A stretch of 25,785 nucleotides of DNA from a virus. Made by a program: the position numbers and the translations under genes. Positions 1,794 through 21,129 of this stretch are shown piece by piece. The notes below the pieces were generated by a model. That model did not search any database. It was not told the origin of the DNA and worked only from the letters and a program-made list of their open reading frames with translations. Positions within the stretch are counted from its first letter, which is position 1; every line of letters begins with the position of its first letter. The stretch spans positions 1-25,785 of the IMG/VR virus record IMGVR_UViG_3300009285_002348. One strand, given 5' to 3'.

Positions 1794-1827
1794 AAAAAAA
1801 GACCAATCACCCCAAGGTTCTTGGTCT
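1794..1827 (-). terminator. Intrinsic terminator before the fibre gene (module 4)
   Basis: Stem AGACCAA / TTGGTCT with inner GAACCTTGGGGTGA, followed by seven T (1800-1794). Its inner sequence resembles that of module 2 at 10027. The fibre gene starts about 36 nt further on, after AAAAGGAAATAAC. Confidence 0.85.
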
Positions 1828-1859
1828 GTCTAACCGCTCGTGTTAGCAAAGATATTGTA

Positions 1860-1888
1860 ATTTTATAACCTTTGTACATAGTTGTCAA
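1860..1888 (-). promoter_or_regulatory. Sigma70 promoter upstream of the fibre gene (module 4)
   Basis: TTGACA (1888-1883), a 17-bp spacer, then TAAAAT (1865-1860), five of six positions. It begins 3 nt after the stop of the nozzle gene. Predicted start near 1853, leader about 60 nt. A small hairpin CTAAC / GTTAG (1830-1846) lies before the terminator. Confidence 0.8.
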
Positions 1889-1890
1889 TT

Positions 1891-3897
1891 TTACGTCCAA
1901 CTGGATGGCAGTCTACGTCTAACCAAAGTGCCCTTAGATTGAAGAGATAATATGGTAAAATCCGTGTCCGCCGTGCTGGAAGAAACCTTGTACTGAATGT
2001 TGTACACCTTAGCTCTTTTTTTGATAGCCTTTTTAGTTGTGGCCTGCGTAAATGTCGATGGTGCGTCCACAAGAATTATTGCCCAACTCCCCGCTCCCCC
2101 CGAAGTGTTTGTCTGCGTTTCAGAGAAATGATTTTCACCAAACAGATCGGTACCAATACCCGTGTTAGATCCAAAATCGGTTATGGTCGCTGTGGCGATT
2201 GTATTGAAACTATTGGACTTGCCAATTCCCAATACTTGAAAGTTTATGGCTCCACGCGGGTTTCCAAGTTCCAGAACAGTCTCTTTTAGATTCAAAATAT
2301 CGGTTTTTACCTTGGACACCGGAATAAGAGGAGATAAATATGTCTGTGTAAAAGCGGCTCCAAAATCGTTAAGTATGTTTTCTGAGATCTCTACCAACCG
2401 AGTTCCGGTCGTGGGAATACACAGAAACTTCGTATCCTTCGATACTGTAGTATATTCAAGGAACTGTTTAACACCAAACGACCAATCAACCGACCAGTTT
2501 GCTCTTTCATCGTCCCACACAATAACCCGGTCATTCCCCGAACTCGATGTGGGAACCGATATAAAAACCTTAGCATCGTAATAATACGAACAAACAGTGT
2601 TCATTTTAGCTCCAGACAAGCTCCTCCAGTAGGGACGAATGTTTTGAGACTTTTCATTTGTTCGCAGGATACCGTAATAATTCTTTTCGCTACCTAAATC
2701 AAACCAACCCTTCCTGTTTGGGAAGGCTAGATTATTCGGGGTAGCAACAACCCCCAGTGCTGACTCAGTACCAAACGACCCCACCACCTTTGTTGCGGAC
2801 GGCACCGAAAAAGATGTACTCCCAACAGTAGCACTTGTGATGGTTATCTGCCAGACGGCTCCCCTGCCGTCGGGAGTTCTCGATAAAACCGTGGCTCTAC
2901 CCTCACCGGTACCACTCTGGTAGTGTTTTACTGCAACAGGAATCTCGCGTCCGCCCTTTTCCAGATTAATCCAACCGCCACCGTAGAAATCAGAGAAGTT
3001 TCCGATAAAAGAGCCCGTCCCGGAGAAATATACCTTGTACATGTCCGCCGTGTTGTTGGTTGCCCAAACTCTATTACCCGACAGAACCATGGAGATAAAT
3101 TTTGGTGCTCCGGTAGTATTGGCATCAGGAACCTCTATATAAACATTCAGGTCGTTTGTGCCGTCATCGGTAAAGTTTGTTACATCGCTGTTCCCTAGGA
3201 GTACCTCATAACCGGATTGATCTGAGAGATATATCTGATATCGGGTAGCGCCAGATGACGCCGTCCAAGACCATGTTAATTTATCCGTTCCCGCGACCCA
3301 ATTATCTCTGGTCTTATTGACCGTGATCGAGGCTTCGGTAGATCCCACAGTTTCACCCACACTGTTAAGCGCGGTAACCTGGGCATAATATGTATAAATA
3401 CCGCTGGTAAGCCCCGAGGCGACCCGAGATGCTGTCAGATTGGTTGGGGCTGATATTTCTGTGTACGTGGTTAAAACCGACCCATCATACCTGGTCAGTG
3501 AGTCCGTTCCGTTGGCAATATACAAATATCCGGCGATTTGCATGAAGTAACACTGTATTCCTGCGGTAAAACTTGCGCCCGTTATTGCGGTGAGAGTCCC
3601 CCCATCAGTAGATTTATAAGCAGTGCCGTTACTGATAGTAATTAGTTCCGTGGTTCCGTCGGATTTCACATACTCGGCCGCACCATCGATTGTTGCGGGG
3701 TGGGATGCACCGTAGTAATTTCTACCCCAGCGTGTTTTCCACAAACCGTCCTGTACCTGCATGAGGTTGGTGCTTTGAACCGCAAATTTCGGACTCATTC
3801 GCGCCTCCTGCACCAAAGAGGAGTTACCCCCGGAAAAATCATCGATTCCGATGGTTATTTCTTTTTGTCCGCCGTTTCCACGACCTGTAAAACGCAT
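1891..3897 (-). CDS. Tail nozzle / tail tubular B-like protein with FN3 domain
   Basis: 668 residues, starting directly after the adaptor stop (TAA-ATG). The N-terminus (EITIGIDDFSGGNSSLVQEARMSPKFAVQSTNLMQVQDGLWKTRWG) is the type seen in beta-propeller tail nozzle proteins of podoviruses. Blade-like repeats with YLYIANGTDSLTRYDG and NRVWATNNTADMYKVYFSGTG follow. Residues about 150-250 (SAPTNLTASRVASG ... YYAQVTALNSVGETVGSTEASITV ... YQIYLSDQSGY) look like an inserted fibronectin type III domain, which in virions often contacts host surface glycans. The C-terminal part is beta-rich with VSKVKTDILNLKETVLELGN. It forms the end of the tail tube in the family. The FN3 call is firm from the repeat pattern, the nozzle call likely from position and pattern. 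Confidence 0.65.
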   Translation of the reverse strand: MRFTGRGNGGQKEITIGIDDFSGGNSSLVQEARMSPKFAVQSTNLMQVQDGLWKTRWGRNYYGASHPATIDGAAEYVKSDGTTELITISNGTAYKSTDGGTLTAITGASFTAGIQCYFMQIAGYLYIANGTDSLTRYDGSVLTTYTEISAPTNLTASRVASGLTSGIYTYYAQVTALNSVGETVGSTEASITVNKTRDNWVAGTDKLTWSWTASSGATRYQIYLSDQSGYEVLLGNSDVTNFTDDGTNDLNVYIEVPDANTTGAPKFISMVLSGNRVWATNNTADMYKVYFSGTGSFIGNFSDFYGGGWINLEKGGREIPVAVKHYQSGTGEGRATVLSRTPDGRGAVWQITITSATVGSTSFSVPSATKVVGSFGTESALGVVATPNNLAFPNRKGWFDLGSEKNYYGILRTNEKSQNIRPYWRSLSGAKMNTVCSYYYDAKVFISVPTSSSGNDRVIVWDDERANWSVDWSFGVKQFLEYTTVSKDTKFLCIPTTGTRLVEISENILNDFGAAFTQTYLSPLIPVSKVKTDILNLKETVLELGNPRGAINFQVLGIGKSNSFNTIATATITDFGSNTGIGTDLFGENHFSETQTNTSGGAGSWAIILVDAPSTFTQATTKKAIKKRAKVYNIQYKVSSSTADTDFTILSLQSKGTLVRRRLPSSWT

Positions 3898-4584
3898 TTA
3901 AACACCAAACCCGTCATCTGCGGGACTAAATTCTGTACTGTCCTGCAACCATGCGGGAGCGACGTTCCGCGTTCGCATGCCCTCTAGTTTCTGCGTAGCT
4001 ATTCCAAGGGCAGATGTATCCCCCTCGTCTTTTTTAAGCTCTGATAGAACATAATAAACTGCGAACATGGGGTCGGCCATCTCAAACACGGATGCCCCCG
4101 CGGTTAGTTTGGTAGCGTTCTTGTAGTAATTATAGGAAATAGTGTAATTTGCGGGAAAAGTGCTAGAAAGATTCGGATTAAATTCCAGAGTTGGCGAACC
4201 GTCTAGGAGGAAATAGCACCAGTGGGATGTATCATTCTCCAAAGTCTGTGCCTTTTCTTGGGATATTACCTTATATGCGACTTTATTCGTCCCAGAACCC
4301 AGCCACACATAACCACTAGCAGGAAACTTAAAATCTGTTGGGCACGCATAAGACGTATCTTCCGCGGACGTAGTTTTATCCCCCGTCGCAGCATCGGCCA
4401 ACTTAACAAACAACTCCTTCCACAACACACCCTCCTCGTTTTCCCAGATATTGACGGCAACATTCAAGAGTGACAACCAAACAGTAAAATCCTCATCTCC
4501 GGATGATGGTGCCGATGAGTCAGATTCATAAAGACTGTTTATATATGTAATTGCGTCAGAGACGGTATCAATGATTTTTGCCAT
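3898..4584 (-). CDS. Head-tail adaptor / tail tubular A-like protein (putative)
   Basis: 228 residues, starting at an ATG that touches the T-run of a terminator, with no Shine-Dalgarno. The protein begins with a helical segment (IIDTVSDAITYINSLYESD), followed by WLSLLNVAVNIWENEEGVLWKELFV, then beta-rich sequence (SGYVWLGSGTNKVAYKVIS, PANYTISYNYYKNA) and a C-terminal helical part with MADPMFAVYYVLSELKKDEGDTSA. This alpha-beta-alpha layout and the position directly before the nozzle gene fit the head-tail adaptor / tail tubular protein A class, which docks the tail on the portal. I base this on position and general layout rather than a specific motif. It ends with TAA directly followed by the next ATG. 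Confidence 0.55.
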   Translation of the reverse strand: MAKIIDTVSDAITYINSLYESDSSAPSSGDEDFTVWLSLLNVAVNIWENEEGVLWKELFVKLADAATGDKTTSAEDTSYACPTDFKFPASGYVWLGSGTNKVAYKVISQEKAQTLENDTSHWCYFLLDGSPTLEFNPNLSSTFPANYTISYNYYKNATKLTAGASVFEMADPMFAVYYVLSELKKDEGDTSALGIATQKLEGMRTRNVAPAWLQDSTEFSPADDGFGV

Positions 4585-4610
4585 AAAAAAAGACGAGCCT
4601 TGTGCCCGTC
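4585..4610 (-). terminator. Intrinsic terminator abutting the adaptor start codon (module 3)
   Basis: Stem GACGGGC / GCTCGTC (one G-T pair) around ACAAG, followed by exactly seven T (4591-4585) that end directly at the ATG of the next gene. There is no room for a ribosome-binding site between them; an AAGGA occurs only in the loop of the hairpin further upstream. Confidence 0.8.
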
Positions 4611-4644
4611 CGACCTACCATCCTTGTAGGTAAAGATTAAGTAA

Positions 4645-4673
4645 ATTATATATTTTTAAACAAGCTTTGTCAA
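4645..4673 (-). promoter_or_regulatory. Sigma70 promoter upstream of the adaptor gene (module 3)
   Basis: TTGACA (4673-4668), a 17-bp spacer, then TATAAT (4650-4645): a full consensus match. The TAA of the giant virion gene (4656-4658) is within the spacer. Predicted start near 4638, leader about 54 nt. A hairpin ACCTAC / GTAGGT (4613-4631) lies between promoter and terminator. Confidence 0.85.
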
Positions 4674-8837: not shown

Positions 8838-8859
8838 CTTTTATGAAAACCTTCCGTTA

Positions 8860-10002
8860 TCAACCAAATAGGTTGTTTCTATCTCTCTCATCTTCTCCGC
8901 TATAGTTGTATGCATAAGCATTTCTATTGCCTTGTGCCACGACCGGTTGACCAAAGATGTCTGTCGCCTGTGGTAGGTTGGGGCTTATCTCGGAGACTTG
9001 CTGCATGGTAGATTTTAGCGTAGATATATTATCGGATACACGCATAGCCCATGTATCCAATGCCTGTTTTTTGGTTACAGCCTGTTGATTAATATCGTTC
9101 AGACTCTGGATGGCCTGGTCTAACAGACTTTTAGACAGTGCCTGCAGGTCTTGTGACTTTCCCAACTGACCCTGACTTTTCAAGGAGGCTAGTTGGTTTT
9201 GCGCGTCATTAAACCACATCGCAATCTGTTGTACCTGTTGGTTTTTCGCCTCTGATAGATTATTAACCTCCGTGTTGTAAATATTATTCAGATTTGTTTC
9301 TCTTGCGTTTATATCAGCAAGGATGTTTGCTGTTTCATTCATCACTCCCGACCTTTGTTGGGTACCCATTTTATTTAATGCGTAAGAATACTGGTCTGCG
9401 GCCGAACTGTCTCCCGCACCGCGGGATCCTAAAAATATGTTTCCCGCCATAAAAGCGTTTCGTATGTTTTCTGAAACATCGCGTAAACTTCGAGTCTGGT
9501 TTTGCTCTGCCGAAGTCCTGTTTTGACCGAGGCTTTGGAGTCCTTGCTCCCTCTGCAAATTTAACGATCCTAAACCCTGTTGATATTGACTGTTGGCCAT
9601 ACTCTCCTGTGCTAACCTCTGTCCAGAAAGTCCGGACAGTTGGGAGTCTAAACTACGCACGTAATTGTCCCACCCAGAGGATATATCTCCTCTTAAACGT
9701 CTTGCGCTCTCGTCTATACTCTCGGGTGTAGAACGATCTGTTTCTCTGGGCATTACGTTAGGTGTGGTGTTTCTCGGAACGCCACCACCTGTAGTCACGC
9801 TCGTACTTGGAGTATTCGATCGAGATAACAGGTTACTACCAGTAGTATTGTAAGGACTGACTGCCTGCGTGGCTATTTGATTGGCCGTAGTCCTATTTAT
9901 TGGGTATTTTCGTGCTGTTTGTACAGAACCCTTTTTGCCACCGAAGAACTCGGTTATACTTAACTCCGGGAGACCCCTCCAACTTCCAAATCCTATTGCC
10001 AT
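8860..10002 (-). CDS. Internal virion / ejection protein (putative)
   Basis: 380 residues, rich in Gln, Ser, Asn and Thr, with an N-terminal low-complexity region (about 30-95). A long helical part (about 95-340) looks coiled-coil and includes SGLSGQRLAQESMANSQYQQG and FMAGNIFLGSRGAGDSSAADQYSYALNKMG. Such composition, the 'GSRGAGDSSAADQYSYAL' segment, and the position directly upstream of a giant virion gene are typical of podovirus core or ejection proteins, which travel with the DNA into the host. It has no membrane segment or catalytic motif. It starts with AAAAAGGAGGTACG in front of the ATG. The role is inferred from position and composition, and the exact family is not recognised. Confidence 0.6.
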   Translation of the reverse strand: MAIGFGSWRGLPELSITEFFGGKKGSVQTARKYPINRTTANQIATQAVSPYNTTGSNLLSRSNTPSTSVTTGGGVPRNTTPNVMPRETDRSTPESIDESARRLRGDISSGWDNYVRSLDSQLSGLSGQRLAQESMANSQYQQGLGSLNLQREQGLQSLGQNRTSAEQNQTRSLRDVSENIRNAFMAGNIFLGSRGAGDSSAADQYSYALNKMGTQQRSGVMNETANILADINARETNLNNIYNTEVNNLSEAKNQQVQQIAMWFNDAQNQLASLKSQGQLGKSQDLQALSKSLLDQAIQSLNDINQQAVTKKQALDTWAMRVSDNISTLKSTMQQVSEISPNLPQATDIFGQPVVAQGNRNAYAYNYSGEDERDRNNLFG

Positions 10003-10026: not shown

Positions 10027-10063
10027 AAAAAAAGACCTCTCCACCCCAAAGGTTTCAAGGTCT
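10027..10063 (-). terminator. Intrinsic terminator before internal virion protein (module 2)
   Basis: Stem AGACCT / AGGTCT with a long inner part (AACC opposite GGGG, so the arm is imperfect) and seven T (10033-10027). The inner sequence, AACCTTTGGGGTG, is close to that of the module at 1794 (AACCTTGGGGTG), so the two leaders look related. After it comes AAAAAGGAGGTACG, a strong ribosome-binding site for the next gene. Confidence 0.8.
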
Positions 10064-10096
10064 GCGTGTTGCTCTTGGCAACCGAAAGACACCTAT

Positions 10097-10124
10097 ATTA
10101 TACACCTAGATATAAATAAATCAA
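10097..10124 (-). promoter_or_regulatory. Sigma70 promoter upstream of internal virion protein (module 2)
   Basis: TTGATT (10124-10119), a 16-bp spacer, then TATAAT (10102-10097). The TGA of the last glycosyltransferase falls inside the -35. Predicted start near 10090, with a leader of about 64 nt up to the terminator's T-run. A small hairpin (GTTGC / GCAAC) lies between promoter and terminator. Confidence 0.75.
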
Positions 10125-11212
10125 GAAAGAACCGATTTGAAAAAATCTGCATAAAGTTTAATGTTGTCTTTCATCTGATGTGTGTTCTCAACCGTCTCGA
10201 AAGCGTTCTCTGCCATACTTTTCCTGAGCTTTTTATCTTCTATGAGCTTTTTAATACTTTCGTACCAACCGCTTGCGGTGGTAGCCAAAAACCCATTGGT
10301 TCCGTGATTGACCGCCTCGTTGTACTGACGTATGTTACTCCACACCCCCGGTTTTACGGCACTACTCGCCTCAAGGTATTTAATGGATGATTTACATCTA
10401 TTGTAGATGTTGTCGTCTAGGGGTGTTACTATAATATCTGCCTCATCCATGAAACCCGGCATTCTCTCCCCAACCCATTTGTACAGATCCTGATGTCCGT
10501 AGCTATTCTCATATCGTTGCCCCCACCTGTATTTATATTTGGGAATCAAGGCACCCACAGTTTTTAGAGTAACGTTGGGATACTCTTTCATAATCATATC
10601 TATTCCCCTCGCAAACTCCTCGCTTTGCAGGTCGATAAAGTGGGACGTGCTGCCGAAATGCACAAGGCGTATGTCAGCCGTATCTTTAAAAGGTGACCTG
10701 TGTGTGTACAGATTATCCAAATCTATATAATTCGGGAACACCACTATCTCGGAAACGGATTTATCGGTATTGTGCGAAATAGCGTTTCTCAAATACTTGT
10801 TGGTAGTAGTTATGTAATCTACCTCGTTGCATATTGCAGTAAAGTTGTGTAGATTCTCCGAACCTTTTTTGAACGCCTCATAAACTGGGTTATCTGGCAG
10901 TATTCCCCAGATAAGATCATCCACATCCATTATCAAAAGTCTGTTAAACTTCCTTGCCATAAGCCCCATTTTGGCAAATTCCCACGACATCGCCGTATAG
11001 TTAAAAAATATAATATCGTGCTTTGAAGCTACATCTAACCAGTCCAGTGTCTTGTGTTTTCTGGGATCGTATACATGTACTACAAACTTGGTATCAACAT
11101 CCTTGTAACCGTTTAAGTGCCTTGCCGGCTGTATTATCCGCGCAAAATCTACCCCGGACGTACGTTCCAAAGATTGATGGGACGGCAGTGCAAAAATACG
11201 TATAGTTTTCAT
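10121..11212 (-). CDS. Glycosyltransferase, GT-B type (GT4/GT1-like)
   Basis: 363 residues, the usual length of a GT-B enzyme. The C-terminal donor-binding domain is recognisable: DIRLVHFGSTSHF (about residue 175), IIVTPLDDNIYNRCKSSIKYLEASSAVKPGVWSNIRQYNEAV, then GTNGFLATTASGWYESIKKLIEDKKLRKSMAENAFETVENTHQM. The S-I-K-x-L-E-A-S segment is the E-x7-E-type donor site region, and the last part is the classic tail of such enzymes. It starts with an ATGA overlap on the preceding glycosyltransferase and ends the cassette; its TGA lies inside the -35 of the promoter that follows. Donor and acceptor are not known. Confidence 0.8.
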   Translation of the reverse strand: MKTIRIFALPSHQSLERTSGVDFARIIQPARHLNGYKDVDTKFVVHVYDPRKHKTLDWLDVASKHDIIFFNYTAMSWEFAKMGLMARKFNRLLIMDVDDLIWGILPDNPVYEAFKKGSENLHNFTAICNEVDYITTTNKYLRNAISHNTDKSVSEIVVFPNYIDLDNLYTHRSPFKDTADIRLVHFGSTSHFIDLQSEEFARGIDMIMKEYPNVTLKTVGALIPKYKYRWGQRYENSYGHQDLYKWVGERMPGFMDEADIIVTPLDDNIYNRCKSSIKYLEASSAVKPGVWSNIRQYNEAVNHGTNGFLATTASGWYESIKKLIEDKKLRKSMAENAFETVENTHQMKDNIKLYADFFKSVLS

Positions 11213-11961
11213 CTCTGCGTATCCTCCAGGAACTTATCCAACTTCTTATCGAAAATCTCTCTCAAGCCAATGTAGTGTCGCCTGAAGGCACCCACGTTGA
11301 ATATCTCGCCCGGGTCCGCACCAAAACTCATGCCGTCAGACCCAGGCTCATACTTATTGGTGTAATCCTCCTTCGAGTAGGTTTTGTTAAACATGACCAC
11401 ACGACATCCGCACAACCTAGCAACCTCCGTCATTGCCGAAACAGGGTCGTAACAGTACATTACTTGGCACTCGTTTAGCAGATCTGCCAGCCCCCCCTGA
11501 TTCCGTGCTAAAGAACGATCGACAATAATCGCCCCGGGCTTGTGTAAACCTAAATCCTCGCCCTTTCCCACAAACACCGCCCTCTTATCGCGGGCCCTGT
11601 GTTGGTCTTTAAATATGTTCGTGTTTATCACAGGTAAGAACATGTAATGATCGTCATTAGTATCCCCGAACAGTCTTGAAAAGTAGTAATTATGCTCGTT
11701 CGGATCAATTTCCTTTAATCCCCCCCCCTGTCCGCTGGACATGACACCTAGTTTATTCAATATATATCTCACCACCGTACCTGCCCCGACGGGATTGTCT
11801 GCTACTATCTCGGGGTATACCGCAACCACATCACCTGCCGGATATTGGTTCATATATACTTCCACTCCCCTAGCCAGAAGGTGCCCATAAAGACCAAACA
11901 TTACTTTTATCCCCCCACTAACAGGGTCATAGGGAGGGGAAACAAGTACGTATGGTTTCAT
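11209..11961 (-). CDS. Glycosyltransferase, GT-B type (short)
   Basis: 250 residues with a glycosyltransferase N-terminal signature: VLVSPPYDPVSGGIKVMFGLYGHLLARGVEVYM, i.e. a G-G-x-x-V-x-x-L-x-x-x-L glycine-rich loop and a helix. The second half has 'VFVGKGEDLGLHKPG', 'LADLLNECQVMYCYDPVSAMTEVARLCGCRVVMFNK', the latter like the donor-binding turn of GT-B enzymes. It is shorter than the typical 350-380 residues and may be a single-domain-rich or minimal form. Its stop overlaps the next ATG as ATGA. The donor is unknown. Confidence 0.65.
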   Translation of the reverse strand: MKPYVLVSPPYDPVSGGIKVMFGLYGHLLARGVEVYMNQYPAGDVVAVYPEIVADNPVGAGTVVRYILNKLGVMSSGQGGGLKEIDPNEHNYYFSRLFGDTNDDHYMFLPVINTNIFKDQHRARDKRAVFVGKGEDLGLHKPGAIIVDRSLARNQGGLADLLNECQVMYCYDPVSAMTEVARLCGCRVVMFNKTYSKEDYTNKYEPGSDGMSFGADPGEIFNVGAFRRHYIGLREIFDKKLDKFLEDTQR

Positions 11962-11962
11962 T

Positions 11963-12709
11963 TTAAATCCTCCTTACAGCAATACTATTACCACCAAAAG
12001 CAATTTTCTTTGCCCACACTCTAACCTCGTCGGTAAGTGGCATGTTATCGAAATCTAGTTTAGGAAAAACATTTCCCCTAGCAAAGTGGTAGGCAAACAC
12101 CTGCTCGTTCTTGCACATCAGCTTGTCATCCTCTATATAAAACAGAGGTTCCCGACCCAAAGACTTACAACCGTAGTAATCCTTTTCCTTGTCAAATACC
12201 TTCAATTTCAACTTAGATATTTTTGAATCATTATAAATCAACAAATTTAGAGTATCGTTTTCCTTGCGTAGGTACTTCATTGCTTTTCGATTTATCTTTT
12301 GCCATGCTTTCCAGAAATCTGGGTGCGTTGAGGCAACCATACCCGCCTGTAGATACATCTCCTCGGTAATGTTTTCAAAACTAGCGTTCTCATAATCGTT
12401 GTAGTTCCATACAGCACCCACATCATAATCTGTGTTGTCAAACACCTCGGTTAGGCGTCCACAAACTAGCGTATCGGCGTCTATGTTTACGATTAAATCA
12501 TACTTATCGACCAAAAGTTCCGCCAAAAACGGCTTGGCTTGATAAAAATTGATATTTTTCTCAGCGAACAACTTATCTACGACATCCTGCCGAAAGACTA
12601 TCAAATCAATGTCGGGATGAAACCGGACAAAAGAGTTAATAAAAATGTGCGTCCCGACGGGGTAGAAATATCTGTCGTCTGCTACTGTAAATGCGCATTT
12701 TCTTTGCAT
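11963..12709 (-). CDS. Glycosyltransferase, GT-A fold (DxD)
   Basis: 248 residues. The N-terminus is a nucleotide-sugar-type Rossmann start (MQRKCAFTVADDRYFYPVGTH). The metal-binding DxD motif is at N-I-D77-A-D79-T-L, as in GT-A enzymes. The acceptor-side motif EMYLQAGMVASTHPDFWKAW resembles the 'N-A-G-V-M' element of GT8-type enzymes, and later HFARG also recalls the His-containing segment of that family. It should transfer one sugar from a nucleotide-sugar donor. It starts 4 nt after the previous stop codon and lies just upstream of the two GT-B genes. Family number and donor cannot be fixed from the sequence. Confidence 0.75.
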   Translation of the reverse strand: MQRKCAFTVADDRYFYPVGTHIFINSFVRFHPDIDLIVFRQDVVDKLFAEKNINFYQAKPFLAELLVDKYDLIVNIDADTLVCGRLTEVFDNTDYDVGAVWNYNDYENASFENITEEMYLQAGMVASTHPDFWKAWQKINRKAMKYLRKENDTLNLLIYNDSKISKLKLKVFDKEKDYYGCKSLGREPLFYIEDDKLMCKNEQVFAYHFARGNVFPKLDFDNMPLTDEVRVWAKKIAFGGNSIAVRRI

Positions 12710-12712
12710 AGA

Positions 12713-13183
12713 TTAAATCCTCGCCACAAAATGTTGGTTCGGATACTCAAAATATCGGTATCCTAAGTTTTCCAAAATATTCTTAACTGGCCTATCGTGG
12801 TACTCACCAACAATAGTTCTGACCAAGGTTTTAGGAAACGCACTATTGAATAGTTCCACCTCATCACCCTCTATGTCGATTTTCAATAAATCCAGCACAG
12901 GTATCACGTGTCCCGACATAAATTCGCCGAGGTTTAAAACACGCTCTTCATATAACCGAACTTTGTTAAGTTTATTGTCTTTTATAGTTTGTCTAAATAA
13001 ATCTAGGCTACGCGTATCTTTATCGACTGCGTGTATCGTGCTGGCTCTGGGATAGACCCATAGGGAAAACGCCCCTATATTACAACCTAAATCCATAACC
13101 ACAAGGTTATCAAATACAGGAGAATACTCTCCATTTTCCAGAACCTCCCAAATATACCTGGTCGTGTCTAAATGAATAATCAT
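12713..13183 (-). CDS. Second FkbM-like SAM methyltransferase
   Basis: I choose the ATG at 13183 (156 aa), which overlaps the previous stop as ATGA. An ATG ten codons earlier (13213) is possible but overlaps by 34 nt. The SAM loop VVMDLGCNIGAFSLW is followed by IHAVDKDTRSLDLFRQTI and, near the end, LLKIDIEGDEVELF. These are the same motifs as in the preceding FkbM protein but in a shorter protein with a different N-terminus. It probably methylates another position of the same glycan or another residue. The end is GYRYFEYPNQHFVARI. Catalytic activity is inferred from the motifs. Confidence 0.75.
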   Translation of the reverse strand: MIIHLDTTRYIWEVLENGEYSPVFDNLVVMDLGCNIGAFSLWVYPRASTIHAVDKDTRSLDLFRQTIKDNKLNKVRLYEERVLNLGEFMSGHVIPVLDLLKIDIEGDEVELFNSAFPKTLVRTIVGEYHDRPVKNILENLGYRYFEYPNQHFVARI

Positions 13184-13833
13184 CTGGTAAATAAAACCAC
13201 TATTGCTGAACATTCATAACGTCTTGCCTGAAAACCCAGCCTAAGCATGTGTTCAACAAGAAGTTGCCACGTGGGGTAATGAAACTCTACTTCAATCGCC
13301 TTAATCTTTGGAGCTATTTTGATAAATCCCTCGGATCTTAGAATTTTGTCCTCTGCCCCCTCTACATCAAACTTTACGAAATCCACCTCACCGATTCCGT
13401 TCTGCGCCATAAAGGTATCAAACGACATTGTTTTTACCCTTTCCCCACCCTGGCCGTAATCGTTGGTGATAGAATTGCACGTAAGGTTGTTGGGTAGGAA
13501 GTTTATCGTGGCGTCTCCATCGCTATCGGATAAGGCCAAATTAAAAACCTCCACATTATCCCACCTGTTGAACTCTTTGTTTTTCCTAAGCGCCTCAAAA
13601 TGCATAGACGAGGGCTCGATGGCATAAATCTTTTTAGCATAATCCCTCATAAACTGCGTTACAACACCTATATTTGCTCCGACATCGATTATAACCATAT
13701 CCTTTTTCTGGTTTAGAACATCGGCGTAGATACTATCAAAGTATATTTCTTTATATATCCACGGAATATATAGACTATCAAACTTTATAGGACTCTTTTT
13801 TGTACCCTTCGGGTAGTATAGTGCGCCTAACAT
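13180..13833 (-). CDS. FkbM-family methyltransferase
   Basis: 217 residues with the FkbM pattern: an SAM-binding loop VIIDVGANIGVVTQF (about 47-61), IYAIEPSSMHFEALRKN, ALSDSDGDATINF, and the later acidic motif VDFVKFDVEGAEDKIL (about 150-165). In this family the enzyme moves a methyl group from S-adenosylmethionine to an oxygen of a sugar or related substrate, mostly in glycan and antibiotic pathways. It starts 2 nt from the HNH stop and its stop overlaps the next gene as ATGA. It sits with a second methyltransferase and three glycosyltransferases, so its likely target is a sugar residue of the same glycan. Confidence 0.8.
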   Translation of the reverse strand: MLGALYYPKGTKKSPIKFDSLYIPWIYKEIYFDSIYADVLNQKKDMVIIDVGANIGVVTQFMRDYAKKIYAIEPSSMHFEALRKNKEFNRWDNVEVFNLALSDSDGDATINFLPNNLTCNSITNDYGQGGERVKTMSFDTFMAQNGIGEVDFVKFDVEGAEDKILRSEGFIKIAPKIKAIEVEFHYPTWQLLVEHMLRLGFQARRYECSAIVVLFTR

Positions 13834-13835
13834 AG

Positions 13836-14285
13836 CTATCTCTTTCTATTATTGGGAAATATTTTACTTATCACACCCCAATTAGATTCCTTGTCCTTTT
13901 GTAGGTGGCATTTATGACATAAAGATTCCCAATCATCTAAGTCACGTTTATACTCATAACTTATATTAGACCACTCAAACGGGGGTTTGTGGTCGTCCCC
14001 TCTTGCGCATCTATCCGCACTTCCTAGTTTACTTCTAACCCAATCGTGAAGAGCATCGTAGCCAACTAAATCCCCTTTCCAATTGTGTGGGGTATGTCCG
14101 GCTTTAAATTCGGTATCTGGAGACTGGTGGATTCCCTTTAGTCCTGTATTCCACGGCTTAGCACCTTTCTTGAAAGCAGTACTAGGAACTATCCCTGTTT
14201 TCTTGCCAGTATTCCATGCAACGTGTCCCTTCTTAAAGTGCGTTTTACCTGTATTATATTGCGGGTGTCCCTTAGTAAACGGCAT
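13836..14285 (-). CDS. HNH homing-type endonuclease with N-terminal repeats
   Basis: 149 residues. The N-terminal half consists of four short repeats of the type F-x-K-G-H-x-x-W-N-T-G-K (near residues 3, 17, 39 and 60), the modular DNA-binding style of phage and intron homing endonucleases. The C-terminal half is an HNH nuclease: ADRCARGDDHKPPFEWSNIS, then EYKRDLDDWESLCHKCHLQKD. One Cys is seen in the first zinc knuckle position, and C-x-x-C-H in the second. It is free-standing and lies just after the truncated transketolase subunit. A possible promoter (TTGTAA, 15 bp, then TGT-GATAAT at 14320-14294) lies only 9 nt before the ATG and would give an almost leaderless message. No intron is visible. 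Confidence 0.8.
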   Translation of the reverse strand: MPFTKGHPQYNTGKTHFKKGHVAWNTGKKTGIVPSTAFKKGAKPWNTGLKGIHQSPDTEFKAGHTPHNWKGDLVGYDALHDWVRSKLGSADRCARGDDHKPPFEWSNISYEYKRDLDDWESLCHKCHLQKDKESNWGVISKIFPNNRKR

Positions 14286-14320
14286 GTGTTTAAATTATCA
14301 CAGTCCCAACCATGTTACAA

Positions 14321-14827
14321 CTACCTTATCAATCCTATAAAACTTGCCTCATCGTGTTCCACCATGTACTTAACCATTGCCGGTATTTGTTCCTTAGATG
14401 TCGGGTAATGTTCCATCAATTGGCACGAGTGTATAAACTCCTGTGCCTTAGTTCCATCGTGACTATATCCATCATGCCTGTAGTTGTCGCCTACCCCAGA
14501 GCCTACAAGCCTTACTGCGATGTTCTCGTGAGCCAAGTACAACGATATGGTTTCAGCGGCACGCAGAAAAAAACTGGTTATCGTATACACAAAAGGCTTC
14601 TTGCCCTCCTGTGCTAATCCTACGGCAATATCTAACATCGCCTGCTCGGCAGCTCCACAGTTTATGAATCTACCCGGGAACATGTTCTGTATTTTATCGA
14701 ACATGCCGTATCCCAAATCCCCCGTCAATAGATAAATACTACTATCCTTTAACATTTCGCTGAACAAAGCTCCTGCGAAGTAACCTCGTTGCGATTGGTG
14801 CCAACCTTCCATCTCTTTTTCTTTCAT
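14321..14827 (-). CDS. Transketolase-like, pyrimidine-binding subunit lacking the last domain
   Basis: 168 residues that match the middle, pyrimidine-binding domain of transketolases: LLTGDLGYGMFDKIQNMFPGRFINCGAAEQAM, with the catalytic-type Glu in GAAEQ at E61, then VGLAQEGKKPFVYTITSFFLRAAETISLYLA and VRLVGSGVGDNYRHDGYSHDG. The protein ends at FIGLIR, where this domain normally ends. The third transketolase domain (usually about 120 aa more) is absent, although many transketolases and relatives need only the first two domains for catalysis. With the N-subunit it would make a minimal heteromeric transketolase. It starts at an ATGA overlap with the GroES-like gene, and an HNH gene begins 36 nt after its stop. 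Confidence 0.85.
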   Translation of the reverse strand: MKEKEMEGWHQSQRGYFAGALFSEMLKDSSIYLLTGDLGYGMFDKIQNMFPGRFINCGAAEQAMLDIAVGLAQEGKKPFVYTITSFFLRAAETISLYLAHENIAVRLVGSGVGDNYRHDGYSHDGTKAQEFIHSCQLMEHYPTSKEQIPAMVKYMVEHDEASFIGLIR

Positions 14828-15072
14828 TTCTTTACCTCACATAAAACATCTTCTTCCGCCACAATAATTATATCTTTATCTCCGGTCTCAAACCCCGCGT
14901 GTTTCCTGAATAAATACATCTTATTTACCTTTAAACCCGAGCCATTGTTTACTGCTAGGGCGGTACCGTACTTAAAATCCTTCGCGGAATCGATCAGAAT
15001 AATCTCACCCGCGGAGCTTTCCAAACCCCCCTCAATGTGCAAGACGACGTAATCGTGTAGTGGTTTAATCAT
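14824..15072 (-). CDS. groES: GroES-like co-chaperonin (Cpn10)
   Basis: 82 residues matching the Cpn10 order: IKPLHDYVVL at the N-terminus, a shortened mobile loop (ESSAGEIIL, about 18-26) carrying the hydrophobic I-I-L tip that binds GroEL, the first strand pair with YGTALAVNNGSG, then VNKMYLFRKHAGFE and the C-terminal IIIVAEEDVLCEV. These are family features of the heptameric lid of the GroEL cage. Phage GroES proteins (T4 gp31 is the classic case) help the host GroEL fold the large capsid protein, and a capsid gene lies about 1.8 kb upstream. It is wedged between the two transketolase genes, with an 8-nt overlap upstream and an ATGA overlap downstream, so it is translated together with them. 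No phage GroEL is seen. Confidence 0.8.
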   Translation of the reverse strand: MIKPLHDYVVLHIEGGLESSAGEIILIDSAKDFKYGTALAVNNGSGLKVNKMYLFRKHAGFETGDKDIIIVAEEDVLCEVKK

Positions 15073-15688
15073 TTAATAACTCCTTGTATTGCTCGTTTGT
15101 GGGAGATAGGTAGTGCGCAGACACCCCCTGTAACCACCCGGGGTATTTAAAAAGATTGGTTCTTATTACTAAGCTTGGGTAAAACATCTGCATCCTTGTA
15201 TCTAACGCATCTACATCCACTTTGCCGAGCGCAGAATATCCGTTAGCATTACAGACAATCTTTAGGTTCTCCAAACGCAGTTCCCCCGCTATACGTAGCG
15301 CCTCCCAACAACTCCCCTCGGCCATTTCCCCATCGGAAACCAATACATAGACATCTATCTGAGGTTGCGCCAACGCCATTCCTACCGCTATTGGCAACCC
15401 GTGTCCTAGACTGCCAGTAGATACCCATATTTGGTTATCTACATCCCTGTTTGGGTGTGTTCCATGCTTCTTCATGAGTTCTTCCGCGTTTGCGATACCG
15501 TTCTTCTCGAGGATCACCGCCAAGGCTAGAAAAGCGTGCCCGTTAGACAGCACGAACTTATCTTGTGGTTTCTTAACCAAAAATAGTTTGTCTATAATGC
15601 CTACCGAGGTCAAAACACTACTCAAATGAGTTAGGCCTAGTTTCTGGGATATTTCAATACACCTGCGTTCTAGTTTATTTAACGGCAT
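15065..15688 (-). CDS. Transketolase-like, N-terminal (TPP-binding) subunit
   Basis: 207 residues. It has the N-terminal transketolase pattern: DKFVLSNGHAFLALA (about 43-57), WVSTGSLGHGLPIAVGMAL (about 88-106), and the thiamine diphosphate/metal motif VSDGEMAEGSCWEA at about 117-130, ending with CNANGY (about 146-151). The usual GDG is SDG here, with the metal-binding Asp kept. In the family, such a subunit pairs with a C-terminal subunit to move a two-carbon ketol unit between sugars. It is compact compared with about 270 aa for stand-alone N-subunits, mainly in the section after CNANGY. Its start overlaps the epimerase, and its stop overlaps the GroES-like gene by 8 nt. Confidence 0.85.
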   Translation of the reverse strand: MPLNKLERRCIEISQKLGLTHLSSVLTSVGIIDKLFLVKKPQDKFVLSNGHAFLALAVILEKNGIANAEELMKKHGTHPNRDVDNQIWVSTGSLGHGLPIAVGMALAQPQIDVYVLVSDGEMAEGSCWEALRIAGELRLENLKIVCNANGYSALGKVDVDALDTRMQMFYPSLVIRTNLFKYPGWLQGVSAHYLSPTNEQYKELLND

Positions 15689-16442
15689 TTACCATTTCCT
15701 CTATTGAAATCTCTAGCGATTTATTAGGAAGCCATCCATAACCCCTTGCTTTGAAATTATCCGATATCCATTCAACATCATCATAATCCCGCAAACTTTT
15801 AACCTCGTGCGTATTCGCTTTCTTTCCTGTTGTTTTCTCAACCAACAATCTAACTTCCTGGTTGCTGTAGCTTGTCCCCGTTCCCAGCTCGAAAATACCC
15901 CGAATGCCTTTGTTTGATAGCATCATTATGCCGTTTACTAAATCCTCTACATCAATCCAGTCATGTCTAGGTTCGGGTACAAAATCCATCTCCTCGCCCG
16001 TAAGACAAGACCTAATAAGGGTTGGGATAAGGTGCTCCTTCTGCTCCCCAACGCCCGTGACCGATAGCGGTCGAACTATGCTTATCGGAGCATTGTATTT
16101 CTCCATAAAAGATAGAAGTATCTCCTCAGAGGCTTTTTTTGTCCTAGAATATGTTGTCTGAACCCTACGTTTAACCGAGGATGTAGACAAATACACAAAG
16201 GACTTAATCTTTTTCCAATCGATCCAATTAAGTACGGTAATTAAATCGCTAACATTGGCTTTAATTATTTTATCGTCCTCAGTATGCCAATACATATTTC
16301 CGTAGGCAGAGAGAAAAAACACCTTTTCGGCATCTGAAAAATGAACTTTATCTATGTTTTCGTGGGGAATTGTTACAACAGCGTCTAGTCTAGCAACCAG
16401 ATGTCGTCCTATAAAAGAGTTTGCGCCCGTTATATACTGCAT
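15675..16442 (-). CDS. NAD(P)-dependent epimerase/dehydratase (extended SDR)
   Basis: I choose the ATG at 16442 (255 aa) over the TTG three codons earlier because it begins the first Rossmann strand exactly. The cofactor motif TGANSFIG is at residues 5-12, the active-site serine region LSTSS at about 85-89, and the catalytic Y-x-x-x-K at Y98 and K102. ISIVRPLSVTG and HDWIDVEDLVNGIM follow, as in sugar-nucleotide epimerases and dehydratases. It acts on a nucleotide-linked sugar in the cytoplasm, and the exact substrate cannot be read from the sequence. It opens the cassette and its end overlaps the transketolase start by 14 nt, so the two may act on the same sugar. It is shorter than typical family members (about 300-330 aa). 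Confidence 0.85.
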   Translation of the reverse strand: MQYITGANSFIGRHLVARLDAVVTIPHENIDKVHFSDAEKVFFLSAYGNMYWHTEDDKIIKANVSDLITVLNWIDWKKIKSFVYLSTSSVKRRVQTTYSRTKKASEEILLSFMEKYNAPISIVRPLSVTGVGEQKEHLIPTLIRSCLTGEEMDFVPEPRHDWIDVEDLVNGIMMLSNKGIRGIFELGTGTSYSNQEVRLLVEKTTGKKANTHEVKSLRDYDDVEWISDNFKARGYGWLPNKSLEISIEEMVNAVK

Positions 16443-16467
16443 ACCTAACAAATCCTACTGCAATGCT

Positions 16468-16496
16468 AGTATAGCACCTTTCTAAATAACCATCAA
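16468..16496 (-). promoter_or_regulatory. Promoter of the carbohydrate cassette
   Basis: TTGATG (16496-16491), a 17-bp spacer, then TATACT (16473-16468), with TGC before the -10 giving an extended -10. Transcription should start near 16461, about 20 nt before the epimerase ATG. There is no terminator-like hairpin between this promoter and the gene, unlike the four promoter-terminator modules elsewhere. Confidence 0.7.
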
Positions 16497-16507
16497 GACC
16501 TTCAAAC

Positions 16508-16765: not shown

Positions 16766-16783
16766 ACACTGTTCCTTCCCTCC

Positions 16784-16824
16784 GTGGTGGGAGAAGCACG
16801 TTAGGGCGTGCCTCCCCCAACCAC
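16784..16824 (-). other. Strong stem-loop after the major capsid gene
   Basis: On the minus strand the arms GTGGT, GGGAG and GCACG (from 16824) pair with CGTGC, CTCCC and ACCAC around a CCCTAA loop. This makes about 15 bp with a 3-nt bulge on one side and a 2-nt bulge on the other. No T-run follows, so it is not a standard intrinsic terminator. It lies 20 nt after the capsid stop and about 20 nt before the next gene's ATG, which fits an mRNA-stabilising or expression-tuning structure. Confidence 0.7.
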
Positions 16825-16843
16825 TACCCGGTGCTACCCAAGG

Positions 16844-17797: not shown

Positions 17798-17832
17798 ATA
17801 GTTTTAATATCTCACCTTCCTTCTTAGTGCTT

Positions 17833-18606
17833 TTAGGCTTGAACCACCCCTAGTTGTGCCTCAAGCTCGGCGATGGACTTGTCCGTTGCCGGTTTCTCTT
17901 TGTCGCGGATTGATGTTGGGCGCAGAGCTGCCTCCGAAACCTGTTTCACTACGCTCTCTGTCATATCCCCAACTTCCTTGCTAACTGCCCCCTTGTAGGG
18001 ACGCATCAGCTTTTCCACAAATTGTTTTACTGATGCGGTGTACGGATTCCTCGTTACATAGGCCTCCGTAGCCTCAGATATAGCTTCGGAAAGCTCCTTG
18101 TTAAATTTTTCGCCAGCAGGATCGAGTTCTGGATGTAAGCGCATAACCTCCGCGGCCTCGCTGTTAATCCGGTTTACCGCCTCCTGTTGCTTTCCCCTAA
18201 GCGTTATCAACGCGTCGGTTTGTTTGAGGATTTTGCTCTCTCTTGTGCGTAACCTACGCTCAAGTTCGAGGGCATCAATCTCCTCTCCGGGCTGTACTAG
18301 AGGGTCATCATCGTACGGTTGGTTTTGCTGATAGTCCAGCGTTGCTGGGTCAGTCAAACTCCTTAATCTGGCCTCTAGTGATTCGGCTCTGGCCTCGGCT
18401 TCTTTGGCCTTAGCGTTCAGCTCCCTCACCCGTCGCGAAAAACCTTTTTTGGTGGTTTCCTCGGTTTCTATCGTCTCGTCCGTCTCCGCATTTGCGGTTC
18501 CGGACGACTCAATGTCCTCCGCTGTTTTTTCATCTGCTACCGGCGTAGTAGCCACGTCGTTTTCTGTCTCGACGTCCTCGTTTAACGCCGTATCTTCATC
18601 TTGCAT
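17833..18606 (-). CDS. Capsid scaffolding protein
   Basis: 257 residues, very acidic at the N-terminus (repeated E/D/T up to residue about 50), then a helical, coiled-coil body rich in Ala, Glu and Arg (residues about 55-90 and 115-150). The C-terminal part is also helical (IAELEAQLGVVQA). This composition, together with its position directly upstream of the major capsid gene, is typical of phage scaffolding proteins, which line the prohead interior, guide capsid assembly and leave or are cleaved before packaging. No protease motif is visible. The Pro/Asp-rich hinge (YQQNQPYDDDPLVQPGEE) may separate two helical arms. The start ATG at 18606 is preceded by AGGTGA. Confidence 0.8.
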   Translation of the reverse strand: MQDEDTALNEDVETENDVATTPVADEKTAEDIESSGTANAETDETIETEETTKKGFSRRVRELNAKAKEAEARAESLEARLRSLTDPATLDYQQNQPYDDDPLVQPGEEIDALELERRLRTRESKILKQTDALITLRGKQQEAVNRINSEAAEVMRLHPELDPAGEKFNKELSEAISEATEAYVTRNPYTASVKQFVEKLMRPYKGAVSKEVGDMTESVVKQVSEAALRPTSIRDKEKPATDKSIAELEAQLGVVQA

Positions 18607-18701
18607 TTAATTCACCTGCTTTCTTACATACCACCTTAGGGGTGTATGAGGTCATCCCAAGCAATAATGTGCTTGTTCCTGCACACGCAGATACAAGAAC
18701 A
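18607..18701 (-). other. 95-nt spacer before the scaffold gene
   Basis: No convincing gene. It contains a small inverted repeat (CAGATA ... TATCTG, minus strand) and, near its end, AGCAGGTGAATTAA, the ribosome-binding site of the scaffold gene. An 86-codon frame crossing this spacer (18596-18856) overlaps both neighbours in other frames and is not supported. Confidence 0.5.
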
Positions 18702-18929
18702 CTATCTGTTTTTAAGTATTGGTCTTCCTGATTCGTCCAGTCCCACAAGCAATTTATCCATCCCAATGTAGATGGCGTGTTGCAACTCACAAGACTTACA
18801 AACCAAATACGGACCTTGTTGCCGCCAACTATGTTGTTCGTTCGGCTTAAAGACAAACGCAGGTCGGTTAAAATCCAGCGTCTCAGACTCTGGTATTATT
18901 TCAATGTTCTCATCACTCGTTTTTTGCAC
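18702..18929 (-). CDS. Small protein with possible zinc-binding C-x-x-C / H motif
   Basis: I choose the GTG at 18929 (75 aa), which overlaps the previous stop by 17 nt and has GGAGG close upstream. A TTG 14 codons earlier would give an 89-residue form that runs deep into the neighbouring gene in another frame. The core is HSWRQQGPYLVCKSCELQH, where H, C-x-x-C and H could bind zinc. It is followed by AIYIGMDKLLVGLDESGRPIL, a beta-strand pattern with G-x-P-I-L near the end. It sits between portal and scaffold, so a small head-associated role is likely, but the family is not recognised. Confidence 0.55.
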   Translation of the reverse strand: MQKTSDENIEIIPESETLDFNRPAFVFKPNEQHSWRQQGPYLVCKSCELQHAIYIGMDKLLVGLDESGRPILKNR

Positions 18930-19233
18930 AGGCCTCCGAAGCGTCTGCCACCTTATTAAGCAGCCTCTCAATCGCCTCTTGTGCCAAGCTAACTACCACG
19001 GCGTTTCGTCCTATTTCGTCCAAAGGCAGTCCTTGGGAAATAGCCAGTTTGTTTATACCACCTAACTCTGAGGTAACGCTTATTGCAATATCCTTAAAAA
19101 TCTTCCACCCGGCGGTTTGAGACATTGCATGCAAAGCCAACTCTTCCTCGGTCAAAGCCTCGTTTCCTCCAGTTTTTGCTAACGACGGGACATTCACAAA
19201 AAAATCAGGTTTAATGGCGGCTTTTACTGTCAT
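18913..19233 (-). CDS. Hypothetical head-region protein, 106 aa
   Basis: Starts at an ATGA overlap with the portal gene, so it is translationally coupled to it. The N-terminus is extended (KPDFFVNVPSLAKTGGNEALTEEEL), and the remainder is predicted helical with a conserved-looking core (MSQTAGWKIFKDIAISVTSELGGINKLA). The 'GWK' followed by a helix resembles small proteins often found between portal and scaffold in podovirus-like genomes, but I cannot name the family. It has no membrane segment, signal peptide or catalytic motif. A structural or assembly role is inferred from position only. Confidence 0.6.
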   Translation of the reverse strand: MTVKAAIKPDFFVNVPSLAKTGGNEALTEEELALHAMSQTAGWKIFKDIAISVTSELGGINKLAISQGLPLDEIGRNAVVVSLAQEAIERLLNKVADASEACAKNE

Positions 19234-21029
19234 AAAACCTCCTCCTGCGGTTGTTGCACCGCCCCCATCTCGGGCGGCGTTGCGTTCATATTCTGCCCCT
19301 GTTGCATTTGTGCTAAAACATTTTGGAAAATTTGAGCGTCACTGCTTAGAACGGTCTGGTCTTTCTCCTCCTCGGTCTTTTCGACAAGAATTTTATCCCA
19401 ATCCTGAATGCCGGAGCTTGCAATCACTTTCTTGAAAAGCTCGCCGAACTTCAATATATAACCCTCTTTATCCAAATCCGCCACCAAAGTATTTCCATTT
19501 GGTGTCTGAGAGCTCTTATACAGCGTTATGAGTGAAGACAGGTTGTCCTGTTGCACTTTTTGGTCCGCAGCAAACGTAGACCCAGATACGATCTCGTAAT
19601 CATAGAGGTTGGAACCGGATCCTTTCTTACTTATAACCAGTTTTCCACTCTCCTTGTCATACATCTCCTCAATCTCCGGGTAACTCCTTGCAATCTCTGC
19701 GATTTCCTCCTCAAACATCCTTATAGCAACAGACGACGGTTGCTTCTTGGATACGAGGTTTACCATCTTTTTCATCACGGAGGTCAAAAATCTCTCCATA
19801 TAGAACCTGTCTGCGGCATCTCTTGTATTTTCCCGTGCCTGTTGCATTTGCAACGCCTGTGGAGTCCTACCATAACCCGCGTCGGTTTCCTTGGTTACTG
19901 TTGTATCCGATGTACCAAATAGATTGAGGATTGAAGCGTTGGCTGTCTGGAGTGTGTTATTAAACGTAGAAATACCTTGCGGAGATAGATTGATAGTCCT
20001 GACGGCATTGTCTATCTGCCCCCTAACTAACCACTTCTCGGCCGCACCCCACTTGATAGAACTCATTGCAGCGATGTTGTCCTTGTTTATCAGTGCGGGC
20101 GGAAAGATAGACATTTTTACCCCATCTAAGTACAGATTCCACACAGCATTGATGGTCTTTTGCATAGACTCTCCCCGTTCCATATCCCCCATGCCAGATA
20201 TATCATCAAGCAGGGGCATGGAATACTTACGAACGATAGGCAATTCCCCATTCTTGTGTGGGTTTTCGATGTCCCTAAACTCCATGTCCGCATCAACGCA
20301 AAAATCGACCCATCTATCCCCCTCGAATTGAGTTAAAACCTCAAAAAACCCCATGCCTTTAGCCGTCGAAGTATTGGGATATTGTGTTTCCCCACGCTTA
20401 GATTGGTCTTCGGAGGTACGGTTTTGTTTGGAACCAGATTTATCCTTTAATCTACCCACAATACTAGAAATGTTTTTGAAACCATCCTTCTTACCCAATC
20501 GTTCAAAATAAGATAGGGGTTGCCACGTTCTTACGATAACAAAATCACTATCCTCGAGAGAAACAGCCCCTGCCTGGGGAAACACGTCACGAACATTTAA
20601 TAGCCATATGTCTGGACCAGCATACCCGTTTGAGCGTACGTCCCAATCCACGAGAACATCGAACGCTCCGTAGACATTAGAATACATATCGACCATCCTT
20701 AGCTTAGTTAAAAAATCGAACTGAGCGTTGGCATTTGGAACGACGTACTTATCTAAGATCAAATTCTTCAACCTGGCATCTCCTAGGTCATTCTTAGAAA
20801 TGCCCCTCACCTTACCGACGGGAAGTTGTGCCATAACTCTGTGGGCACGCTCTATTATGAGTGTTGATAGACGGTGGTCGAAAATCTGAGATTTAGTTCT
20901 ACTAGATACAGTGTCGTTTAACCTGCCGTGAAAAAGATCTTCCATACTGTCCCAAACCTCTCTTTTAGTAGAAAGGTTATCATAGGACGCTTGAAATCTC
21001 GATTTAATCTCGTTTATAATTGTGCTCAT
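19230..21029 (-). CDS. Phage portal protein
   Basis: I choose the ATG at 21029 (MSTIINEIKSRF, 599 aa). The same frame opens 16 codons earlier, but that stretch translates the terminator hairpin. The protein has the features of a portal / head-tail connector: a long helical N-terminus (KREVWDSMEDLFHGRLND), a Trp-rich middle with 'GPDIWLLNVRDVFPQ' and 'DSDFVIVRTW', the segment MGDMERGESMQKTINAVWNLYLDGVKM, and a C-terminal crown region that is Gln- and Met-rich (FQNVLAQMQQGQNMNATPPEM). Portals form the 12-mer DNA gate and dock the terminase. Length and its place after terL and before the scaffold agree. There is no Shine-Dalgarno in the 6 nt between the terminator and the ATG. The gene's end overlaps the next ATG by 4 nt. 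Confidence 0.85.
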   Translation of the reverse strand: MSTIINEIKSRFQASYDNLSTKREVWDSMEDLFHGRLNDTVSSRTKSQIFDHRLSTLIIERAHRVMAQLPVGKVRGISKNDLGDARLKNLILDKYVVPNANAQFDFLTKLRMVDMYSNVYGAFDVLVDWDVRSNGYAGPDIWLLNVRDVFPQAGAVSLEDSDFVIVRTWQPLSYFERLGKKDGFKNISSIVGRLKDKSGSKQNRTSEDQSKRGETQYPNTSTAKGMGFFEVLTQFEGDRWVDFCVDADMEFRDIENPHKNGELPIVRKYSMPLLDDISGMGDMERGESMQKTINAVWNLYLDGVKMSIFPPALINKDNIAAMSSIKWGAAEKWLVRGQIDNAVRTINLSPQGISTFNNTLQTANASILNLFGTSDTTVTKETDAGYGRTPQALQMQQARENTRDAADRFYMERFLTSVMKKMVNLVSKKQPSSVAIRMFEEEIAEIARSYPEIEEMYDKESGKLVISKKGSGSNLYDYEIVSGSTFAADQKVQQDNLSSLITLYKSSQTPNGNTLVADLDKEGYILKFGELFKKVIASSGIQDWDKILVEKTEEEKDQTVLSSDAQIFQNVLAQMQQGQNMNATPPEMGAVQQPQEEVL

Positions 21030-21035
21030 AAGAAC

Positions 21036-21068
21036 AAAAAAAGACGAGCACATAATATAGCTCGTCTT
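21036..21068 (-). terminator. Intrinsic terminator just before the portal gene (module 1)
   Basis: Minus strand: stem AAGACGAGC / GCTCGTCTT around a 10-nt A/T loop (21050-21059), running into seven T (21042-21036). It sits downstream of the consensus promoter and ends only 6 nt before the portal ATG, so it would stop that promoter's own transcripts unless it is overridden. Confidence 0.85.
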
Positions 21069-21100
21069 AATATACATTTCAGTATTTTCGACTCAAGGTA

Positions 21101-21129
21101 ATTATACAACCGACGTCATTCTGTGTCAA
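21101..21129 (-). promoter_or_regulatory. Sigma70 promoter upstream of portal (module 1)
   Basis: TTGACA (21129-21124), a 17-bp spacer, then TATAAT (21106-21101): a full consensus match. The TGA of the preceding gene (21116-21118) lies in the spacer. The predicted start is near 21094, giving a leader of about 59 nt up to the end of the intrinsic terminator at 21036. Confidence 0.85.

Follow-up and report, generated by a model that had tools for sequence, protein, structure and literature searches.

Why would a phage place strong promoters just ahead of intrinsic terminators, so that the transcripts begun there would be expected to stop before the structural genes that follow? The question is raised by an IMG/VR virus fragment of 25,785 bases (the whole stretch analysed, hereafter the window). 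In this window, the original prediction, made from sequence alone, placed four copies of a promoter, short leader and terminator, and proposed either an undescribed attenuation or antitermination system gating structural gene blocks or a family of four short phage RNAs. All four modules read on the - strand and their coordinates held. In each, a near-consensus sigma70 promoter (10-12 of 12 matches) is followed by a leader, a terminator stem that holds GAC...GTC, and exactly seven T. The original prediction missed a competing antiterminator: each leader contains a small hairpin, P2, closed by a helix of 3-5 bp, P1, and the 3' strand of P1 is the base of the 5' arm of the terminator, making P1 and the terminator mutually exclusive. 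The features are as follows.

21101..21129, - strand: module 1 promoter, TTGACA-17-TATAAT (12/12)
21064..21092, - strand: module 1 antiterminator (nascent fold; covariation of homologous leaders)
21092-21090 with 21066-21064, - strand: module 1 P1, GTC with GAC at the base of the terminator arm
21085-21082 with 21075-21072, - strand: module 1 P2, ATAC with GTAT, loop TGAAAT
21036..21068, - strand: module 1 intrinsic terminator, AAGACGAGC...GCTCGTCTT, seven T (folding; covariation)
19230..21029, - strand: portal gene, led by module 1 (PHROG connector/portal matches; relatives)
10097..10124, - strand: module 2 promoter, TTGATT-16-TATAAT (10/12)
10060..10090, - strand: module 2 antiterminator (nascent fold -10.3 kcal/mol; class comparison)
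10090-10087 with 10063-10060, - strand: module 2 P1, GTCT with AGAC
10082-10078 with 10072-10068, - strand: module 2 P2, GTTGC with GCAAC
10027..10063, - strand: module 2 intrinsic terminator with an inner hairpin, seven T (folding)
8860..10002, - strand: gene for a 380-aa late protein, led by module 2
4645..4673, - strand: module 3 promoter, TTGACA-17-TATAAT (12/12)
4609..4636, - strand: module 3 antiterminator (nascent fold -7.4 kcal/mol; class consensus)
4636-4634 with 4611-4609, - strand: module 3 P1, TCT with GGA
4631-4626 with 4618-4613, - strand: module 3 P2, ACCTAC with GTAGGT
4585..4611, - strand: module 3 intrinsic terminator, GACGGGC...GCTCGTC, seven T (folding)
3898..4584, - strand: gene for a 228-aa adaptor-like protein, led by module 3; ATG directly after the T tract
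1860..1888, - strand: module 4 promoter, TTGACA-17-TAAAAT (11/12)
1825..1850, - strand: module 4 antiterminator (nascent fold -5.7 kcal/mol)
1850-1847 with 1828-1825, - strand: module 4 P1, TTTG with CAGA
1846-1842 with 1834-1830, - strand: module 4 P2, CTAAC with GTTAG
1794..1827, - strand: module 4 intrinsic terminator, seven T (folding)
901..1758, - strand: gene for a 285-aa late protein, led by module 4 (PHROG 3030)

Of the five best-scoring sigma70 sites on the - strand of the window, four are the module promoters; no terminator accompanies the fifth, at 2225 (10/12). Exact TTGACA-N16-18-TATAAT occurs at two sites, with none on the other strand and none in a reversed control. The remaining anatomical claims also held: the promoters of modules 1-3 overlap the stop codon of the upstream gene and that of module 4 abuts it, AACCTT(T)GGGGTG is common to the leaders of modules 2 and 4, and the distance from the last T to the next gene is short (6 nt, about 24 nt, 0 nt and 35 nt for modules 1 to 4), with the portal start corrected to the ATG at 21029. 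The modules cut the late region into four blocks, comprising the portal, capsid and sugar genes (block 1), the 380-aa protein and a 1393-aa protein (block 2), the adaptor-like 228-aa protein and a 668-aa protein (block 3), and the 285-aa protein and whatever follows it (block 4). The labels originally given to these blocks are only partly supported: the portal and adaptor identities have weak profile matches (for the 228-aa protein, Pfam SU10_adaptor at E 1.4e-5, just under the cut-off), and those of internal virion and fibre were not confirmed. Elsewhere in the window, the large terminase is encoded by two overlapping ORFs in different frames (21492-22169 and 22123-22926), an arrangement shared by records G001, G003 and G005; a single ORF of 438 aa takes its place in other relatives. 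Additionally, the head operon (window 10121-16451) includes sugar-related genes conserved in 15-17 of 17 records, among them transketolase-like pieces, a nucleotide-sugar epimerase, glycosyltransferases and methyltransferases, suggesting work on virion or host-surface glycans.

A comparison of the leaders with those of related phages, proposed as a check on the original prediction, was carried out. A portal search recovered 39 related contigs; an alignment search yielded 215, and 80 of these were retained. A nucleotide search of INPHARED returned no close isolate, the portal matching only a stretch of 27% identity in a Microcystis phage, and the three MAG contigs that carry the portal are too few and too short to be trusted for host assignment. 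In approximately 60 non-redundant relatives with enough upstream sequence, a leader and terminator precede the portal gene, mostly with a clear promoter, and the order of promoter, leader of about 50-70 nt, intrinsic terminator and start codon is conserved. An ORF is inserted between module and portal in L023, L026 and L033. The portal module has an exception in L041, at 30% portal identity, and is retained in L112, at 42%. The same order recurs before orthologues of the other three module-led late genes, to differing extents: 11 of 12 contigs have a class-specific leader before the 228-aa orthologue (in the remaining one, L117, a leader of portal type sits one small gene further upstream), at least 12 of 14 have a module before the 380-aa orthologue, in some cases ahead of a small extra gene, and only 4 of 12 have one before the 285-aa orthologue, indicating that module 4 is poorly conserved.

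The inverted order was also evaluated across 716 kb of related contigs. A promoter scoring at least 9 lies in the 73 nt window upstream of 43 of the 86 strong terminators, against 4.0% of random and 5.4% of shuffled windows; at a score of at least 11, the count is 22/86 against a background of 0.2%. A promoter in the equivalent downstream window, the arrangement that would have refuted the original prediction, was found for a single terminator of the 86, so that a promoter placed before its terminator is the rule. It should be noted that this set holds near-duplicate records, and the counts are therefore not fully independent. Several other strong promoters in these genomes lack a terminator and lead straight into a start codon. 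A scan of IMG/VR with a strict DNA pattern returned only two loci, both already known. The module is also portable: at 12227-12298 L091 carries, behind a promoter, a near-identical second portal leader that has a terminator stem of its own and precedes an epimerase gene, and in L117 and L124 portal-type leaders stand ahead of the adaptor operon. The module thus most likely acts in cis on the gene downstream. As a separate observation, 18 of 55 portal promoters in the relatives contain TAGCA, TTAGC, GCTAA or TGCTA in the -35/-10 spacer, sometimes mirrored by TGCTAA in the leader, and this motif could possibly be an operator in a subgroup.

The structure of the leaders is supported by covariation, strongly for P2 and the terminator and significantly for P1. 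Unguided RNAalifold of 34 portal leaders, from a sequence-only alignment, recovered a 4-bp P2 hairpin and the terminator. Covariation was 0.567 for P1 and P2 together (0.261 shuffled) and 0.652 for the terminator (0.266 shuffled), and that of P2 and the terminator is well above both shuffled and slid controls. P1 closes an internal loop around P2, has the form GYC/GRC, and is longer in some leaders (TTGCT/AGCAA in L063, AGTC/GACT in L103). When a covariance model from which P1 had been left out was used to align 49 distinct leaders, P1 alone scored 0.364 against 0.264±0.025 shuffled (0 of 500 shuffles reached 0.364) and at most 0.151 slid. About eleven separate compensatory changes in P1 could be placed on a tree of the portal protein: roughly six origins of U-A at the middle pair, three of A-U at the outer pair and two of U-A at the inner pair. 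Further, swapping 5' flanks within a class lowered P1 (72 leaders versus 62.0±2.9 after swapping; mean score reached in 0/1000). As a caveat, about 15% of P1 cells are unpaired, and L088, L091 and L092 are among the leaders without a clear P1. P1 is thus supported, if less overwhelmingly than P2 and the terminator, as is inevitable for a helix of 3 bp.

Folding is consistent with competition between the two structures. In all four window modules, nascent RNA folds P1-P2 until the 3' arm of the terminator emerges, and the complete RNA folds the terminator. The complete RNA likewise folds the terminator in 49/49 portal leaders, and the nascent RNA folds P1 in 34/49 compared with 27.7±2.8 flank-swapped, an excess of only about 2 sd; relative to the terminator, P1 is a weak helix. 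Leaders are specific to the operon class, and P2 loops differ between classes. Apical loops of 6 nt are common, TCTAAT and TATAAT being the commonest in portal leaders. No Rfam family matched the window or four relatives. Two other readings of the leader were considered and dropped: a mini-ORF with its ATG in the P2 loop and TAA before the terminator, which is absent from many leaders, and a -10-like sigma pause element in the P2 loop, of which the commonest loop, TCTAAT, lacks the critical A.

The module anatomy, its conservation, the covariation of P2, the terminator and P1, and the mutual exclusion of P1 and terminator are established from sequence. The anatomy is that of an attenuator with a mutually exclusive antiterminator; that read-through responds to a signal is inferred. 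In the proposed mechanism, host sigma70 polymerase would start at the near-consensus promoter (these phages likely rely on the host enzyme), and the nascent leader would fold the P1-P2 hairpin first. By default, the 3-5 bp of P1 would be displaced by the stronger terminator hairpin and transcription would stop 0-40 nt before the start codon, yielding an RNA of about 50-65 nt. Were P1-P2 stabilised, most likely by an RNA-binding protein or other factor appearing during infection, P1 would hold the base of the 5' arm, the terminator stem, now shorter, would be parted from its U tract, and polymerase would read into the late operon. Default termination, the stabilising factor and the late timing of expression are all inferred, in the absence of expression data. 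The gating of structural blocks put forward in the original prediction is supported by the approximately 60 relatives, the covariation and the competing antiterminator helix, and the evidence tips, by a modest margin, toward the modules being cis-acting transcription attenuators that gate the late operons of uncultivated tailed phages, with no transcription data and no factor identified. Against such a switch, the differences in P2 loops between operon classes are awkward for one common binding protein.

The start codons may bear on the same switch. The portal ATG at 21029 lies 6 nt past the T tract and has no Shine-Dalgarno sequence. Of 58 relatives, 40 likewise start the portal gene no more than 6 nt from the T tract, and a Shine-Dalgarno-like motif is present in only 4. 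Other conserved genes have such a motif more often (85/272 versus 34/272 random positions), albeit with crude start calls. The terminator therefore overlaps the likely ribosome site, and it may be speculated that the same RNA choice also affects translation. At 21029 and 4584, window starts that lie at or almost at the T tract without a Shine-Dalgarno sequence, initiation could be leaderless or could use the U tract (S1-like). Within the module 1 leader, an in-frame ATG at 21077 would add 16 residues to the portal protein through the terminator and is apparently not kept in relatives.

Of the alternatives, the least readily set aside is that the modules are fixed attenuators, leaky terminators at which P1-P2 sets a constant read-through for each operon with neither regulator nor timing. 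The searches found no regulator, P1 is weak relative to the terminator, and each operon class has its own leader, all of which are in keeping with this reading. Nevertheless, it is considered unlikely: the portal-class P2 loop and flanks are conserved beyond what pairing demands (e.g. TNTAAT loops), suggesting recognition, and a weak, tuned promoter would be a simpler route to the same end. Processive antitermination, in which leader RNA (put-like) or promoter DNA (Q-like) modifies polymerase and P1-P2 is a loading site rather than a competitor, draws on the gene order shared with lambda pR'-tR' and on two adjacent hairpins after the promoter that recall HK022 putL (PMC9378689). It is held to be very unlikely, as no Q homologue (PF06530) and no shared Q-binding-like spacer element were found, and put hairpins stand apart from the terminators that they overcome, while in the modules the terminator is itself the second hairpin, with P1 pairing to its arm. 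Both analogies drawn in the original prediction are thus weaker than supposed, that to put because of this difference in anatomy.

The view that the modules encode short phage RNAs acting in trans, and stand before structural genes by chance, finds support in the strong promoter and terminator that each predicted RNA of about 50-65 nt has for itself. Yet the position at operon starts is strict, often with the start codon on the T tract, and class-specific divergence, the duplication of a module ahead of a new gene and the covariation of P1 with the terminator each favor cis action, leaving this reading very improbable and the family of four short RNAs a poorer fit than attenuation. Equally hard to sustain is the suggestion that each terminator merely ends the upstream operon, the promoter lying upstream of it for lack of space. 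The overlap of the promoters of modules 1-3 with the preceding stop codon is in its favor, but a promoter just downstream accompanies only one of the 86 terminators, and a plain terminator would need neither a conserved P1 nor a conserved P2.

Late-operon attenuators of this kind in phages were not described in the literature searched, and the original description of the system as undescribed held within those sources. It is chiefly in bacterial metabolic operons that antiterminator hairpins overlapping a terminator are known; phages of the lambda type rely instead on a protein or RNA acting on polymerase. The principle is thus known, and it is likely that its use in phage late operons and the RNA family itself are new. 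If correct, multi-copy attenuators on late operons would constitute a distinct strategy of temporal control for phages that use host polymerase. The modules are defined, testable RNA targets that could lead to an unknown antitermination factor of phages without a cultured relative, and their conservation can aid operon annotation in metagenomic phage contigs. A bolder reading is that a widespread lineage times its whole virion program with several RNA attenuators per genome, each relying on a separate antiterminator hairpin, with a phage or host factor of unknown class releasing them all and virion proteins possibly feeding back on their own leaders; on present evidence this is less likely than not.

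A releasing factor was sought among known antiterminators. The CAT RNA-binding domain (PF03123) was found in none of 19 phage records, although positive controls were detected; lambda Q protein was likewise absent from the 19 records (PF06530, the only Q family searched across records), as was a NusG paralogue (PF02357, for NusG/LoaP). The ANTAR domain (PF03861) gave no match in the phage records, but its positive controls were silent too. A Pfam scan of 107 small proteins revealed no RNA-binding antiterminator among 25 of the 45 families matched. Since the phage records are fragments, the absence of regulators is not final, and the factor, a CAT protein included, could possibly be encoded by the host.

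Several characterized systems nonetheless share parts of this design. RAT and ANTAR leaders act by shortening the terminator stem next to the U tract (PMC3369936). In the BglG/LicT/SacY (CAT-RAT) systems, as in the modules, the leader forms a short hairpin, interrupted by internal loops, that overlaps the terminator's 5' arm and, when stabilised, shortens the terminator and parts its stem from the U tract, as is proposed here. Those systems control sugar genes, whereas the modules precede phage structural operons, no CAT domain was found, and the conserved RAT 5' sequence, GGATTGTTACTG, had no match at any module with 3 mismatches allowed. ANTAR leaders (NasR, EutV) similarly combine a hairpin with a terminator in which one stem excludes the other, but their loops need A1 and G4, a requirement that the modules' commonest loops do not meet. 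In lambda pR'-tR' with Q, a strong late promoter is also followed by a terminator before late genes, albeit at one locus, whereas the module phages have several per genome. A Q-binding-type element was looked for in the -35/-10 spacers of 48 promoters (17- or 18-nt spacers) and no conserved motif emerged, information content being low except for the TG of the extended -10. HK022 putL has two adjacent hairpins right after the promoter (PMC9378689); in putL and putR, as in the modules, the leader RNA forms two hairpins in succession near a phage promoter. The put RNA, which binds the zinc-binding domain of RNAP beta', is however about 70 nt and serves early genes, unlike the modules, whose genes are late. 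Finally, ribosomal-protein operons are controlled by autogenous attenuators, the L10(L12)4 leader of B. subtilis being an example of transcription attenuation (PMC4538822). While nothing so far indicates that a late protein binds its own leader, these attenuators resemble the modules in having operon-specific leaders, a likeness that would fit P2 loops that differ from operon to operon.
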